Source: Desulfuromonadales bacterium (GTDB lineage Bacteria > Desulfobacterota > Desulfuromonadia > Desulfuromonadales > BM103). Taken from it: DNA of 55,889 nucleotides. Position numbers and translations under genes: made by a program. The stretch lies in NCBI GenBank assembly GCA_030145205.1, contig JAQYVZ010000025.1, positions 1-55,889 on the forward strand, in the 5' to 3' direction. Below the pieces are notes generated by a model. The model worked only from the letters and a program-made list of their open reading frames with translations. It was not told the DNA's origin and made no database searches. Positions 10,831-52,010 of the stretch are shown here, in pieces (the first letter of the stretch is position 1; every line of letters begins with the position of its first letter).

Positions 10831-10962
10831 TAGCCGCCGATGCACGCCGATTAACACGGATAAATCAAAATCACTATTTTGGGTTATTAAGCCCTTAAAC
10901 AAAAGACAATGGTTTAAGATTTTGACTTTATATCAGCGAGAATCCGCGTGCATCGGCGGCTA
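10831..10962 (+). repeat. Family A palindromic intergenic repeat, copy 1
   Basis: Starts TAGCCGCCGATGCACGCCG and ends with the reverse complement form GTGCATCGGCGGCTA; the centre is AT-rich. It fills the gap between the PH-domain gene and miaB. Five related copies occur in the window, near 34.7, 41.3, 43.2, 47.2 and 51.9 kb. Confidence 0.85.
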
Positions 10963-34610: not shown

Positions 34611-34826
34611 CCGCGATCAGAATCTATAAAAGTAAAAGGCTTATTGGCCGCTGATGCACGCTGATTTACGCGGATAAGTCAAATTCAAAATCAAGGTCAA
34701 CGCCTTTGGGTTATAAGCCTTAACCAAAAACAAAAGATTCTAGGTTTTGTTTTTAATCAGCGTAAATCAGCGTGTATCAGCGGCTAAAACTGTTTTCGAT
34801 TTTGTCTTTATAGATTCTGATCGCGG
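34611..34826. repeat. Nested palindromic element: family A copy 2 inside a perfect 20-bp inverted repeat
   Basis: Outer arms 34611-34630 (CCGCGATCAGAATCTATAAA) and 34807-34826 are exact reverse complements. The inner family A element (34645-34787) starts TTGGCCGCTGATGCACG and ends CGTGTATCAGCGGCTA. It fills the 296-bp aroA-cmk gap; the cmk start lies 49 bp after the outer arm. Confidence 0.85.
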
Positions 34827-41298: not shown

Positions 41299-41428
41299 TA
41301 GCCGCAGATGCACGCCGATGTACGCAGATAAGTCAAAATAAATGCTTAGGGTTTAAAGTATTTAAACAAAAATAAGCGTTTTAGGTTGTGATTTAAAATC
41401 AGCGTAAATCGGTGTGCATCTGCGGCCA
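41299..41428 (+). repeat. Family A repeat, copy 3
   Basis: TAGCCGCAGATGCACGCCG ... ATCGGTGTGCATCTGCGGCC, between lgt and the HAD gene. Confidence 0.85.
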
Positions 41429-42111: not shown

Positions 42112-42262
42112 TTTTAAAATTAACGCTGAGTCGCAGAGGCACAGAGAAAAACTGAAAGACTAAATGTTTTTGGTTTTAACCCTTAGCCTGAAGGTTTTGC
42201 TTGTCCTCTGCATCTCCGCGACTCAGCGTTAAAATGGGTTTTCTCCGTGTTCTCCGTGATGA
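42112..42262 (+). repeat. Family B repeat, copy 3 (inverted relative to copy 2)
   Basis: ATTAACGCTGAGTCGCAGAGG ... CATCTCCGCGACTCAGCGTTA. Its reverse complement matches copy 2 (29552-29710) closely through the core. It lies between convergent genes and stops 6 bp short of the next stop codon. Confidence 0.85.
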
Positions 42263-42268
42263 CAATCC

Positions 42269-42688
42269 CTAAAGGTTCTTCTTCATCTCCAGCACATGTC
42301 CATCGCGGGTCGGGGTGTAGGTGACCTCGTCCATGACGCTATGGATGATAAAGATGCCGCGACCATGCTCGTCCATGGGCGGGCGCGGGTCAGCGAACTG
42401 GCGGATGTCGAATCCCTGACCATGGTCGTAGACACGCATGATCAGCTGGCGGTCGACGATGCTGATTTCAATGTGTACCTGCTTGGTGGGGTCCGCTTCG
42501 TTGGCGTGGCGGATGGCGTTGGCCATCGCTTCGGTCAGCACCAGGTTGAGGTCGTAAGCCAGCTTCTCTTTGTCGCCATCGTAATGTTTGAGCGCCCGGG
42601 CGATATTCTCACCGATATGACCGATCAGACACAGGTATCGGGTCTGATTGGGAACCTTGATGTCGACAGCAACGCGGTCAGTAGGCAT
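42269..42688 (-). CDS. Anti-sigma-factor-type serine kinase (RsbW/SpoIIAB-like HATPase)
   Basis: 139 aa, a single GHKL ATPase domain. N-box EAMANAIRHANEAD, G1 box DHGQGFD and G2-like GRGIFIIHSVMD are intact. In partner switching such kinases phosphorylate a STAS protein and bind a target, often a sigma factor. The STAS partner is encoded 58 bp upstream and the opposing phosphatase upstream of that. No sigma factor gene is nearby, so the final target is unknown. Confidence 0.92.
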   Translation of the reverse strand: MPTDRVAVDIKVPNQTRYLCLIGHIGENIARALKHYDGDKEKLAYDLNLVLTEAMANAIRHANEADPTKQVHIEISIVDRQLIMRVYDHGQGFDIRQFADPRPPMDEHGRGIFIIHSVMDEVTYTPTRDGHVLEMKKNL

Positions 42689-42746
42689 CGGTTTGCTCGG
42701 GTCTCTGCGCCTGTCATGTGACGTACGGCGCAGGTTAGGGTAACGG

Positions 42747-43085
42747 TTAGAAACTGGCGAGGGCGTCTTCCGGGTCGGTGAAAATCTCGAAGACCCGGTG
42801 CAGGCGCGTCAACTCAAACATCGACTTGACCTGCAGCTGCAGCCCGGCAAGTTTCAGGCTGCCGCTGCGGGAGCTGGCATTCTTGAAGCCGGAGACGAGG
42901 GCGCCCAGGCCGGACGAGTCGACAAAGCGAACATCCGCAAGATCGACGACCAGGTTGCTCTTGCCTTCTTCAAACAGCTTCAGCATCTGCGCTTTGAGCT
43001 CGCCGCTGTTATGCGCATCGAGCCGCTCCTCCTTCACCTGCATCAGCACTGCCGTGCCTTTATCTTCAATCTGCAAATTCATCAA
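42747..43085 (-). CDS. STAS-domain anti-sigma-factor antagonist
   Basis: 112 aa; begins ATGATG after AAGGAG. One STAS domain with the phosphorylation motif VDSSGLGAL (about 54-62), the usual target of the paired kinase. SpoIIAA/RsbV-like. Operonic with the kinase gene downstream. A 290-bp gap with a family A repeat separates it from the phosphatase gene. Confidence 0.93.
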   Translation of the reverse strand: MMNLQIEDKGTAVLMQVKEERLDAHNSGELKAQMLKLFEEGKSNLVVDLADVRFVDSSGLGALVSGFKNASSRSGSLKLAGLQLQVKSMFELTRLHRVFEIFTDPEDALASF

Positions 43086-43188
43086 AATACTCCTTAGTCG
43101 GGATGATATTTTTATGGTGTTGTCAGCATGGTCACTGCTAACATTTTAGCACACTCAAATCGGCTGTGCGAAAAGCTAATTCTTTTTT

Positions 43189-43341
43189 TAGCCGCTGCCA
43201 GAAGTAGGTGCCTTGAGGCAATGCACGCCGATTTACGCTGATTTAAAATCAAACCCAAAATCCTTGTTTCTGTTTAAAGCCTTTAAAATCCAAAGCATTG
43301 GTTTTTGACTTATCCGCGCACATCGGCGTGGATCAGCGGCC
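43189..43341 (-). repeat. Family A repeat, copy 4 (with insertion)
   Basis: TAGCCGCTG, then about 22 bp not seen in other copies, then ATGCACGCCGATTTACG; ends GGCGTGGATCAGCGGCC. It lies in the gap between the SSS-SpoIIE gene and the STAS gene. Confidence 0.8.
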
Positions 43342-43374
43342 ATAAACTCTTTGCTTATGATTTATCCTCATCAC

Positions 43375-46300
43375 TCACTTCTCAGTACTCTGCTCTACTT
43401 CTTTGACTTTCATTACCACCATCGAAACATCATCCTGGAAACTGTGTTGACCGGTAAACAGGCGGACCTGCTCGAAAATGTAGTCGATCATCTCCTGCGG
43501 AGAGCGATCGCAGGAGGATTTAATCAGCTCGACCAGCCGATCTTCGCCGAAAAAGTCCCCGTCGTGGGTTTCCGCTTCAAGCAGGCCGTCAGTATACAGG
43601 AGCAGGCAGTCGCCGCTTTGCAGGATTACCTCGTTCTGCTCATATGGAAACTCTCGATGAACGCCGATGATCAAACCTTCAGAATCAAGTCGCAGCAGAG
43701 TCTCGTCCTGACTGCGCCAGAGCAACGGCGGCGAGTGGCCGGCGCTGGCATACCTGGCCTGACCATTTTCCGGGCGGTACTGCAGGTAGAACATGGTGAT
43801 GAACAGCTCCGCCTGGCTTAAGTCTTCGTAGAAAAAATGGTTGAGCGACTTGATGATATTCAGCGGGCTGCCGAGGAAGGCGCTGCGTGACTGGATGAAG
43901 GTCCGCGTCTCAGCCATCAGTAGGGCTGCGCCGACATTATGGCCGGACACGTCGGCAATCACGACATCCAGACGGCCGTCATCGTGATGCAGGTAATCGT
44001 AATAATCGCCGCCGACGTCCTTGGCCGGGACACAAATGCCAGCCATTTCGAGACCGGGAATTTCAGGGACCCGTTTCGGCAACAGGCCGAGCTGGATGTT
44101 TTTGGCAATCTCCATTTCCCGCTGGTGCTCGCGCAAAGTGATCAACCGCTCGGTCTGTTGGGAATTGCGCCAGGCGACCCCGACCTGGCTGGCCAGGTTG
44201 GTGAACAGTTCGATGAACTCATGGGTGAAGACGCCCTTGGATGCACGGGAAAAGGAGGAGAGAACGCCGATGGTTTCGCCTTCGACAGCAATCGGCGCAT
44301 GAGCAAAAGACGCGATGCGATGTTCGTGAATAATGCGCGCCGATTCCGGCTTGCCGATATCGTCGGTATCGTTGACCACGGTGATTTTGTTGGTCAAAAA
44401 AGTTTCACCGATGAAGGTGTCCATGGTCAGGTTGCGCTCCGATTCGCCGAAGTGCCTGGAGGACATGCCGCGCTGGCTGCGTACGGTCAGGGTCTGCCGG
44501 TCTTCGTCGAGGATGCGGATGACGCACAGATCGAACTTGAACTGGTCGGTAAAGATCTTCAGGATCTCGTCAAGGATTTCCTTGAGGGTGCCGCCGCTGG
44601 CGACGGCATGGGCCGCATCGTAGAGCACGCTGAGTTGTTCGCGGCTGGCGTTGCGGCTGATGTTGACCGTGCCGAACACGTCAAACACACTCTCCATTCG
44701 GCTGCCGCGGGCCGACAGGTAATTGTCGATAATAATCCGGGCCGGTGCGGCGCCGACCGAGCCGGCCAGGGTCAGCTCGGTAAAGCGCTTCAGCTTGATC
44801 AATTCCTGTTCCGATAAGCTTCCCTTGTTATCGATCTCCTTGTTGCCGATGAATCTGCTGATCGCAGCGTGCGCCTGCTTTTCGCCGATGAACTTGGTCA
44901 TCATGTTGACGAATTCCATAATGGTCGGCGCCTTGGTGATGCGGCTGCGCTGCAGGGGAGTCTTGCCTTTGTGGTAGACGTCAACGAATTTGGCGATCTG
45001 CTCACGTTCGGCGGCTTTCGGTCTGGTCAGCAGGGAGACGGAGATATAACAGCCAACATTGAAAAACATGGTCCAGAAGAGGGCATGCGACCAGGTGTCG
45101 AACCCGGTTAGCCCGAAGAGAGCCTTCGGCATAAGGAACTTCCAGCCAAACAGCCCTTCATCAAGGATGGACTGGCTCAGCCAGCCGGCTTCGACGAAAG
45201 AGGGTAGCAGTAATGTATAGAACCAGGCGATAAAGCCGAGAATTAGGCCGGTTGCTGCGCCCTTGAAGGTGGCGCGGCGCCAGTAGAGGCCGCCGATCAC
45301 CGCCGGTGCAAACTGGGTTGAGGCCACAAACGAGATCAGCCCGATATTGACCAGCGCCGCCGATTCGCCCAGCAGCCGGAAATAGAGATAGCCGAGAAAA
45401 ATGACCACCACGATAAACAGCCGCTTCAGGTAGAGCAGGCGGCGGGAAAGATCGCGCTCGCCGGTCTGCAGCTTGAGAATTACCGGCATGAGGATGTGGT
45501 TGAGAATCATGGTCGAGAGGGCAACGGAAGAAACCATCACCATGCCCGCTGATGCGGAGAAGCCGCCGAGGAACACCAGCAGGGCCAGCCACTCGTGGCC
45601 GCTCTGCAGCGGCAGGGTCAGGATATAGAAATCGGCATTGTGGGTGTCGCCGTTGGCCATCAACAAACCTGCCAGGGCGATCGGGATCACGAACAGATTC
45701 AGCAGGAACATGTAGGCCGGGAAGCTCCACATGGCGCGGCGGATATGTTCTTCACTCGAGTTCTCGACAACCATGATATGAAACTGGCGCGGCAAAAACA
45801 TCACGGCCATCATCGAGATGAAGATCAAGGTGAACCAGTGTGTATATTCATTGTCGCCAGAGCCGAGCAGCAGCAGGTCTGTGCGGTCCGGGAAACGGGT
45901 GACAAAGCTTTCGAAAATGTCGCTGAAACCGTCAAACATGCCGTAGGTGATAAACAGACCGGCCGCGACGAATGCGACAATCTTGACCACCGATTCCAAG
46001 GCGATGGCAGCCACCAGGCCCGAATGCCGTTCCGATGAATCCAGGTGGCGTGCGCCGAACAGGATGCCGAAGAGCGACAGGCAGACCGCGACGGCAAAGG
46101 CGGTGTCAAACTGGAAATCGATGTTCGGCAAGTGGTGAAGCGACGCGGTCGTGCCGACCAGGGGGTCAGCGAGCAGGTCGAAGGTCCGGGCCACCGCTTT
46201 GAGCTGCAGGGCAATGTAGGGCATGATGCCGAGGACGGCAAACAGGGTGACGATGGCGCCGAGAAAGGCCGATTTGCCGTAACGGCTTGAGATGAAGTCG

Positions 46301-46608
46301 GCGATGCTGCCGATGTTCTGCTCTTTGCTGATGCGAACGATCTTGCGTAGCAGGAACCACCAGGAAAAAGCGATCAGCGTCGGGCCGAGATAGATGGTGA
46401 TAAAGTCGATGCCGTTGGTGGCGGCGCGGCCGATGCTGCCGTAGAAGGTCCAGGAGGTGCAGTAAACGGCCAGGGAGAGCGAGTAGAGGTTGGCGTTGTT
46501 GGTAATGCTGCGGCCGACCTTTTCGCGGCGGTCAGCGTAGAACGCAACTGCGAACAGCAGCCCGAAGTAAACCAGGGAAACTGAGGCGACGATATCAACC
46601 GGAATCAT
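43375..46608 (-). CDS. Sodium/solute-symporter-like sensor fused to GAF and SpoIIE (PP2C) phosphatase
   Basis: 1077 aa. Residues about 1-530 form a 12-13 segment SSS (SLC5-type) membrane domain beginning with the CbrA-like AVYCTSWTFYGSIG motif. Residues about 545-650 form the STAC-like linker (ELTLAGSVGAAPARIII). GAF lies at about 680-840. The SpoIIE/PP2C domain (about 850-1075) has metal-binding Asp864 and Asp868 (KDVGGDYYD), Asp886 (ADVSGHN) and Asp1059-Asp1060 (FQDDVS). CbrA-type proteins normally end in a histidine kinase; here a serine phosphatase replaces it. It probably dephosphorylates the STAS protein encoded downstream. The start overlaps the small membrane gene by 4 bp. Confidence 0.93.
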   Translation of the reverse strand: MIPVDIVASVSLVYFGLLFAVAFYADRREKVGRSITNNANLYSLSLAVYCTSWTFYGSIGRAATNGIDFITIYLGPTLIAFSWWFLLRKIVRISKEQNIGSIADFISSRYGKSAFLGAIVTLFAVLGIMPYIALQLKAVARTFDLLADPLVGTTASLHHLPNIDFQFDTAFAVAVCLSLFGILFGARHLDSSERHSGLVAAIALESVVKIVAFVAAGLFITYGMFDGFSDIFESFVTRFPDRTDLLLLGSGDNEYTHWFTLIFISMMAVMFLPRQFHIMVVENSSEEHIRRAMWSFPAYMFLLNLFVIPIALAGLLMANGDTHNADFYILTLPLQSGHEWLALLVFLGGFSASAGMVMVSSVALSTMILNHILMPVILKLQTGERDLSRRLLYLKRLFIVVVIFLGYLYFRLLGESAALVNIGLISFVASTQFAPAVIGGLYWRRATFKGAATGLILGFIAWFYTLLLPSFVEAGWLSQSILDEGLFGWKFLMPKALFGLTGFDTWSHALFWTMFFNVGCYISVSLLTRPKAAEREQIAKFVDVYHKGKTPLQRSRITKAPTIMEFVNMMTKFIGEKQAHAAISRFIGNKEIDNKGSLSEQELIKLKRFTELTLAGSVGAAPARIIIDNYLSARGSRMESVFDVFGTVNISRNASREQLSVLYDAAHAVASGGTLKEILDEILKIFTDQFKFDLCVIRILDEDRQTLTVRSQRGMSSRHFGESERNLTMDTFIGETFLTNKITVVNDTDDIGKPESARIIHEHRIASFAHAPIAVEGETIGVLSSFSRASKGVFTHEFIELFTNLASQVGVAWRNSQQTERLITLREHQREMEIAKNIQLGLLPKRVPEIPGLEMAGICVPAKDVGGDYYDYLHHDDGRLDVVIADVSGHNVGAALLMAETRTFIQSRSAFLGSPLNIIKSLNHFFYEDLSQAELFITMFYLQYRPENGQARYASAGHSPPLLWRSQDETLLRLDSEGLIIGVHREFPYEQNEVILQSGDCLLLYTDGLLEAETHDGDFFGEDRLVELIKSSCDRSPQEMIDYIFEQVRLFTGQHSFQDDVSMVVMKVKEVEQSTEK

Positions 46609-46865
46609 GGCGTCTCCTCATCGGGGGGCGGTTCGGTTGAGATATACTTATCGTCAGTCTCTTTGCCGAGATAAATGGAAAAAATATAAACGACCAGGAT
46701 TGACAGCGGCCAGCCGACCATCAGGTAGATGACCAGCAGGGGGATGCCGAAGACCGGCGTCTCCTTGTTGAAAATATGCAGGAAGGGGAAGTTCAACATG
46801 ACCACGCCCAGGAAGAAGAAAATCACCCAGGCTTCACGCAATGGCTTGTTGTTTCGAATCCCCAT
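46605..46865 (-). CDS. Small two-segment membrane protein, probable symporter companion
   Basis: 86 aa, ATG 46865 with GGGAG upstream. Two hydrophobic segments (about 12-32 and 38-64) and an acidic, Pro-rich tail. Its stop overlaps the start of the SSS-SpoIIE gene. Small two-segment proteins are commonly encoded beside SSS transporters (DUF485, DUF4212 and similar). Family membership was not identified with certainty. Confidence 0.75.
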   Translation of the reverse strand: MGIRNNKPLREAWVIFFFLGVVMLNFPFLHIFNKETPVFGIPLLVIYLMVGWPLSILVVYIFSIYLGKETDDKYISTEPPPDEETP

Positions 46866-47133: not shown

Positions 47134-47310
47134 TAGCCGCCGATGCACGCCGATTTACGCAGATAAATCAAAAAACAAAATCCGGGTTCTGGTTTAAACA
47201 TCAGCGTAAATCGGCGTGCATCGGCGGCCATTAAGCCTTTCGATTTTGTTTTTACATCAGATTTGATCTGCTTTCCGCACGATGAGCTCAGGACACGTGT
47301 CTGCGGCTAA
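47134..47310 (+). repeat. Family A repeat, copy 5, with 3' extension
   Basis: Core 47134-47229: TAGCCGCCGATGCACGCCG ... GGCGTGCATCGGCGGCC. The extension carries GATCTGCTTTCCGCA and ends TGCGGCTAA; copy 6 has the same extension. Confidence 0.85.
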
Positions 47311-51775: not shown

Positions 51776-52010
51776 GCCGCGGATACAATCTGATTAAATC
51801 TGATGGTTAGTCAACGTCAAAATCAATATGCTTTTCTAGCCGCTGATATACGCCGATGTCCGCAGATAAGTCAAAATCAAGGCTTTGGGTTTAAACATCA
51901 GCGAAAATCGGCGTATATCGGCGGCCACCAGGTTTTAGTTTTTACCTCAGGTTTAATCTGCTTTCCGCATTGATGAAGCTCCGAGCACTCTGAGATTTTA
52001 TCCGCGGCTA
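51776..52010 (+). repeat. Family A repeat, copy 6, nested in outer arms
   Basis: Outer arms GCCGCGGAT (51776-51784) and ATCCGCGGC (52000-52008) are exact reverse complements. The inner core (51837-51926) is TAGCCGCTGATATACGCCG ... GGCGTATATCGGCGGCC. It shares the 3' extension (ATCTGCTTTCCGCA) with copy 5. Confidence 0.85.

Follow-up and report, generated by a model that had tools for sequence, protein, structure and literature searches.

The STAC domain, according to a passage of PMC4834066, owes its name to joining SLC5 domains 'almost invariably' to two-component outputs. In CbrXA of Pseudomonas an SLC5-STAC sensor is followed by a PAS domain and a histidine kinase, and passages of PMC9100948 present CrbS (acetate) and RpuS (pyruvate) as SLC5/STAC kinases for small carbon substrates. 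Partner switches are built from other parts. In RsbU/RsbP/RsbZ-RsbV-RsbW and SpoIIE-SpoIIAA-SpoIIAB, a PPM phosphatase is combined with a STAS antagonist carrying a DSSG motif and an RsbW-type kinase, and the part of PMC6482189 concerned with CrsR-CrsA (Shewanella) and HsbR-HsbA (Pseudomonas) describes them as partner switches acting on RpoS in Gammaproteobacteria. Here we analysed a 55,889-nucleotide stretch of a Desulfuromonadales genome (assembly GCA_030145205.1, contig JAQYVZ010000025.1, positions 1 to 55,889; hereafter the window), which carries a four-gene locus that combines an SLC5/STAC transceptor with a partner switch, two known kinds of system. This combination is conserved across the class Desulfuromonadia and is well supported. 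The genes, domains and key codons of the locus are:

46605..46865, minus strand, gene of a small membrane protein (86 aa), whose last 4 nt (ATGA), with the stop codon, are also the first of the sensor gene
43375..46608, minus strand, sensor-phosphatase gene (1077 aa), in the order SLC5/SSS, STAC, GAF, SpoIIE (PPM)
44986..46608, minus strand, SLC5/SSS transporter-like domain (residues ~1-541, the end set by predicted helices)
45982..45984, minus strand, Lys209 codon, aligned with Lys196 of CbrA, the residue that occupies the Na2 site
44710..44922, minus strand, STAC-like four-helix region (residues 563-633, from the 10ed_A alignment and predicted helices)
44173..44589, minus strand, GAF domain (residues 674-812 by Pfam), which matches 2qyb
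44083..44223, minus strand, long predicted helix joining GAF to phosphatase (residues 796-842), where the output types diverge
43405..43983, minus strand, SpoIIE/PPM phosphatase domain (residues 876-1068)
42747..43082, minus strand, STAS antagonist gene of the RsbV/SpoIIAA type (111 aa from ATG)
42915..42917, minus strand, Ser56 codon in the DSSG motif of STAS, the expected phosphorylation site
42269..42688, minus strand, RsbW/SpoIIAB-type kinase gene (139 aa)

The window protein shares with CbrXA the SLC5-STAC part from end to end, the Na2-site lysine and an overlapping small gene upstream, but has SpoIIE/PPM in place of DHp-CA, GAF in place of PAS, and changes at three of eight pocket residues (see below). 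CrbS and RpuS belong to the same sensor family; their output is two-component with a response regulator, whereas that of the window is a partner switch. The phosphatase, the DSSG antagonist and the RsbW-type kinase are those of the RsbU- and SpoIIE-type switches, from which the locus differs in that its sensor is a transporter domain and that no sigma factor adjoins it, as the initial annotation had also observed. Like CrsR-CrsA and HsbR-HsbA, as a passage of PMC6482189 describes them, it is a proteobacterial case of STAS and RsbW-type domains under a PPM phosphatase. In CrsR and HsbR, however, phosphatase and kinase share one response-regulator protein, whereas in the window they are separate genes with a membrane sensor, and Pfam found no receiver domain in the window sensor or kinase proteins.

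The initial annotation had listed the same four genes and had read the largest as a CbrA-like transporter domain with a STAC-like linker, a GAF domain and a SpoIIE phosphatase in place of the kinase. Family searches, the match to an SLC5-STAC chain of known structure and conservation across the class all bear this out, and all four genes are in place on the minus strand. In the 1077-aa protein, Pfam (E≤1) detected SSF (1.6e-6, best stretch 32-145), GAF_2 (1.6e-14, 674-812) and SpoIIE (2.2e-53, 876-1068). Neither HisKA nor HATPase_c was found in it at this threshold, so the two-component output of the SLC5/STAC kinases is lacking, and the remnant of a histidine kinase that had been named as fatal to the proposal was not found. 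The two downstream genes matched STAS (3.8e-18) and HATPase_c_2 (5.1e-24). The STAS open reading frame had been listed as 42747-43085 from a TTG codon; the ATG at 43082, with AAGGAG in front of it, is the better start.

Residues 10-634 aligned end to end with the SLC5-STAC chain 10ed_A of the PDB ('histidine kinase') at E=1.6e-73, and the weak SSF score thus understates the SLC5 identity. Its name, length and content suggest that 10ed_A is the SLC5-STAC structure of CbrA in PMC13022988, and we treat it as such. With the four predicted helices at 563-633, the alignment places the protein among the SLC5/STAC family, with SLC5 at its N-terminus and the four-helix STAC domain next in order. In an AlphaFold2 model the SLC5 part superposed by VIA-align on CHT1 9bim (Z 32.3, 466 residues, rmsd 3.5); it listed no row for the STAC part, a result without bearing on the fold of that part. 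The best transporter model of NCBIfam was the monocarboxylate permease MctP (58 bits vs a cut-off of 625). A STAC motif, LGPx(x)A, is given in a passage of PMC4834066; at this position (618-623) the window protein reads VGAAPA. G619 and A623 do not vary across 16 rows, and the L and P positions depart from the motif. Trp53, Lys209 and Phe427 of the SLC5 domain are invariant in the 14 rows of alignment A3, and Lys209 also in alignment A2 (16 rows, two kinase versions among them). CbrA residues were placed on the window protein by way of the alignment made for a close relative. In the account of CbrA in PMC13022988, Lys196 occupies the Na2 site; as Lys209 matches this lysine, the movement of substrate would probably be coupled to protons.

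The AlphaFold2 model (mean pLDDT 77.8, pTM 0.52, from the 14-row alignment) covers the junction for which a structure prediction had been proposed. It predicts four STAC helices at 563-633 with moderate to low confidence, a GAF domain at ~656-812 and a single helix (796-842) that continues into the phosphatase; pLDDT was below 50 in stretches 635-653 and 821-826. The GAF domain is 38% identical to 2qyb, which comes from the GAF region of a membrane protein of Geobacter sulfurreducens, and GAF-bearing kinase relatives align with the window protein as far as about residue 794-853. The phosphatase domain has the PPM fold, as judged by VIA-align against SiaA-PP2C 6k4e (Z 27.5, 242 residues, rmsd 2.7). 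The residues of its acidic motifs (D868, D871, D886, D1007, D1059 and D1060), which we take to be metal-binding, are invariant in A3.

At the sequence level the downstream pair has the parts of a partner switch. Ser56 of STAS, presumably the phosphosite by analogy with SpoIIAA, is invariant in 20 rows, and eight residues of the kinase (E53, N57, D88, G90, G92, G109, R110 and G111), which we assume to form the ATP site, are invariant in 23 rows. The best solved structural matches of both proteins are partner-switch proteins of the RsbV/RsbW and SpoIIAA/SpoIIAB type. In the genome, only the window's HATPase_c_2 match, out of 20, lies in a short frame (the other 19 are in frames of at least 497 aa). 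Of the two STAS matches besides the window's, judged by eye, one resembles a SulP transporter and the other, in a 111-aa frame, has chemotaxis-like genes next to it. The window pair is therefore the only RsbV/RsbW-type pair found in the genome.

The survey of domains and neighbours across genomes that had been suggested was made on 248 Desulfuromonadia genomes of at least 80% completeness, the window's own included. The sensor-phosphatase matched in 224 of them at E≤1e-60 (168 of 187 among the better genomes). Among the 150 match rows listed, 145 were full length and 5 partial, from at least 136 genomes (hand count, own genome included); relatives by name include Geothermobacter, Geobacteraceae and Desulfuromonadales. 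By our count the best E was above 1e-200 in 16 of the 224; the two of these that were examined (G180 and G184) have a phosphatase without the sensor half, so some matches are not the fusion. Two genes merged by a sequencing or assembly error, the other condition under which the initial annotation would have given up the fusion, can be excluded, since full-length matches occur in many genomes of the class, single-contig ones included. In a phylum set of 394 genomes, 81 matched at E≤1e-80, 20 of them in the class by our count; among the matches listed, none from outside the class reaches the phosphatase, all ending by residue 853. Among plasmid records 63 matched at E≤1e-40, and none covers 80% of the query. 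In one single-contig genome (G040; L028 6807-10013) an in-frame stop lies near the start of GAF, at about residue 687-695; it may reflect a split gene, gene decay or an error.

The gene order is kept class-wide as well. It was counted in 51 distinct SLC5-SpoIIE copies, the window included (52 rows, with L023, which lies inside L088, counted once). The small gene lies at most 120 nt upstream in 49 of the 51, and STAS and RsbW follow downstream in 46 of the 49 copies with room for them; the three exceptions are paralogs, and each of their genomes has a complete copy besides. Purifying selection acts on all four genes: among nine closely related pairs, dN/dS was 0.048-0.492 for the small protein, 0.027-0.086 for the sensor, 0-0.048 for STAS and 0.016-0.163 for the kinase. 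A gap of ~290 nt containing an inverted repeat separates the sensor gene from the STAS-RsbW pair, and the pair may for this reason have its own promoter. Extra paralogs without STAS or RsbW (L171 4816-9856; L033 1894-9295) lie near genes for acetyl-CoA hydrolase/transferase and aldehyde ferredoxin oxidoreductase, neighbours that are a possible hint at carboxylate ligands. Many relatives have, upstream of the small gene and in the same orientation, a protein of ~520-530 aa (e.g. L059 11353-12915), and the one tested matched AAA_33 and, weakly, APH. We did not accept it as part of the operon, as it is absent upstream in the window.

The small protein has two hydrophobic segments, read from the sequence, and P27, Y47 and W52 are invariant among 20 aligned relatives. 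With its gene overlapping the sensor start, it resembles CbrX in size and position. The companions of kinase and EAL versions show the same sequence pattern, and profile A1, which includes two kinase companions, matched the small protein of an Azoarcus EAL version (see below) with 98.1% probability (E=8.6e-14); neither the window protein nor profiles A1 and A6 matched a CbrX chain in the PDB. Passages of PMC13022988 describe CbrX as a hairpin that is bound to the CbrA transporter domain and is dispensable for growth on histidine, and an earlier study, in a passage of PMC6591292, judged its sequence unimportant. The conservation seen here argues for a role of the small protein at the protein level. 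Identity with DUF3311, the small partner of MctP, was not accepted: of 20 small proteins a single one matched it, at 0.0067.

The origin of the output swap was analysed in an SLC5-STAC tree of 48 rows (25 SpoIIE and 23 kinase versions). Three of the 20 phylum loci fetched (L067, L074 and L079) were kept out as start-truncated or in the wrong frame; L067, tested later, is a kinase. The rows labelled as kinases carry HATPase_c (23/23) and HisKA (22/23) by Pfam. All 25 SpoIIE versions form one clade (support 100/99) next to the kinase versions, and nearest to it are eight GAF-bearing kinases, joined at 93/94 (below the program's star). This pattern suggests that the swap happened once, among relatives that bear kinases. 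The tree is rooted at its midpoint, and the direction from kinase to SpoIIE rests on the wider spread of the kinase versions. Two genomes (G032 and G041) carry both types. A third output type was found on plasmid pAZKH of Azoarcus sp. KH32C (L174 4302-7692; WP_231874591.1), with the order SLC5-STAC-GGDEF-EAL (GGDEF 6.9e-31, EAL 1.6e-75). This protein is like the window sensor in its SLC5-STAC part (44% identity over residues 2-627) and in the homologous small protein upstream, and unlike it in its c-di-GMP type output.

On balance we think it probable that the window protein acts as an SLC5/STAC transceptor whose output has been swapped and now feeds a partner-switching module. Together with its CbrX-like hairpin subunit, the transporter-like domain would bind or move a small carbon substrate, and its conformation would pass through STAC and GAF into the long helix. 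This helix may dimerise and so render the PPM domains active, as can be inferred from RsbU, in which, as a passage of PMC12143880 reports, the partner orders the linkers into a short coiled coil and dimerisation activates the phosphatase. The phosphatase would then dephosphorylate the co-encoded STAS protein at Ser56, and unphosphorylated STAS would bind the RsbW-type kinase, which would release its own target. The action of the phosphatase on the window STAS protein is inferred from the operon and the families involved, and its control by a solute is putative. Several points weigh against this reading. Five of the eight histidine-pocket residues of CbrA described in PMC13022988 are identical in the window (Y51, W55, F71, Y75 and F406), whereas three differ (S53 to T51, A56 to T54 and F248 to S265, CbrA to window), so the ligand is probably one other than histidine. 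In family f4 the sensor is absent in 12 of 12 listed genomes with STAS and RsbW kept, and no SLC5-STAC, GAF or phosphatase was detected beside the pair at four f4 loci (L050-L053); the pair can thus exist with other inputs. The window's own genome encodes three more proteins with a SpoIIE domain and shows a single weak match of PP2C type, and these other phosphatases might serve the same STAS protein. Finally, a passage of PMC6591292 reports that CbrA without its transmembrane part signals when overproduced; the role of the transporter part may thus be no more than to tune the output.

This last point leads to the alternative that survives best, in which the SLC5 part is a mere membrane anchor or a working transporter and a cytoplasmic signal read by GAF controls the phosphatase. 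Such an arrangement would agree with the response of soluble CbrA and with the GAF domains that, in a passage of PMC12143880, sit directly on other PPM phosphatases, e.g. C. difficile RsbZ. An anchor is harder to reconcile with the invariance of Trp53, Lys209 and Phe427 and the low dN/dS of the sensor, with the docking of STAC on the transporter described for CbrA in PMC13022988, or with the CbrX-like gene that accompanies nearly every copy, and we consider this alternative somewhat unlikely.

The target of the kinase could be RpoS, as in CrsR-CrsA and HsbR-HsbA, in which case the system would gate the general stress response. A genome scan with Sigma70_r2 turned up RpoD, RpoH, one ECF factor and an RpoS-like factor whose 322 bits fall short of the model cut-off of 378.7; nothing of the SigB/F/G type was found (RpoN is outside the scan and FliA may have escaped it). 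Together with the gammaproteobacterial switches this favours RpoS. In 36 hand-picked genomes, however, RpoS does not track the system. Of these, 35 have RpoS. The remaining one (G168, a single contig), whose sole sigma match type is RpoD-like, keeps sensor, STAS and RsbW, and five with RpoS (G103, 80% complete, and G141, G142, G145 and G195) lack all three. Co-occurrence thus speaks against RpoS as the only target, and we regard RpoS as a distinctly unlikely candidate. The loci around second copies of RsbW or of the sensor (L168, L169 and L171) offered no consistent target candidate.

Natural deletions bear on whether the operon is a functional unit. RsbW and STAS were looked for in 53 genomes, 24 chosen for a missing or weak sensor and 29 controls; RsbW was found in 47 and STAS in 48 (weakly in G182), and all 29 controls have both. 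In genus g70 the phosphatase domain is kept upstream of STAS and RsbW at 4/4 loci (L054-L056 and L063), where SLC5-STAC, GAF and the small gene were not detected. That the operon is mere neighbourhood, with another substrate for the phosphatase and separate regulation of STAS-RsbW, would fit the ~290-nt gap with its inverted repeat, the three paralogs without an adjoining STAS or RsbW and the pair retained in f4, but is quite improbable given the adjacency across the class, its survival of the loss of the sensory half in g70, and the joint loss of sensor, STAS and RsbW in five genomes and of sensor and RsbW in G182, where the STAS match is weak.

A broader proposal can be made tentatively: SLC5-STAC with a CbrX-like subunit may be a general plug-in sensor whose output, be it histidine kinase, PPM phosphatase or GGDEF-EAL, is exchanged directly after STAC or after GAF. 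In Desulfuromonadia it may ancestrally, and throughout the class, provide the input to the single RsbV/RsbW-type pair of the cell, whose target would be something other than RpoS and perhaps no sigma factor. If so, the uptake of a carbon substrate would set a cell-wide switch. A whole class departs here from the two-component rule of STAC; its versions fall in one clade and keep their operon. According to a 2025 proposal, set out in a passage of PMC12143880, coiled-coil linkers permit the exchange of sensors among kinases, PPM phosphatases and cyclases; the window system would be a natural case of such exchange with a membrane transporter as the sensor, and offers a second type of readout for asking how transporter domains signal. 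Our literature searches found neither an SLC5-SpoIIE protein nor this regulatory switch in Geobacter-type bacteria, for which the locus points to a switch of class-wide extent.

Repeats were also observed in the window. Ten matches to a repeat near AATCNGCGTGCATCGGCGGC were found with up to 3 mismatches (0.01 expected), as four inverted pairs and two singles; they lie mostly between the main open reading frames and constitute a REP-like element:

10833-10960, AATCNGCGTGCATCGGCGGC-like repeat
34647-34784, AATCNGCGTGCATCGGCGGC-like repeat
41301-41426, AATCNGCGTGCATCGGCGGC-like repeat
43321-43340, AATCNGCGTGCATCGGCGGC-like repeat
47136-47228, AATCNGCGTGCATCGGCGGC-like repeat
51906-51925, AATCNGCGTGCATCGGCGGC-like repeat

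A further intergenic inverted repeat, with 32-nt arms that are 81% complementary, lies at 42120-42232, just downstream of the kinase gene.

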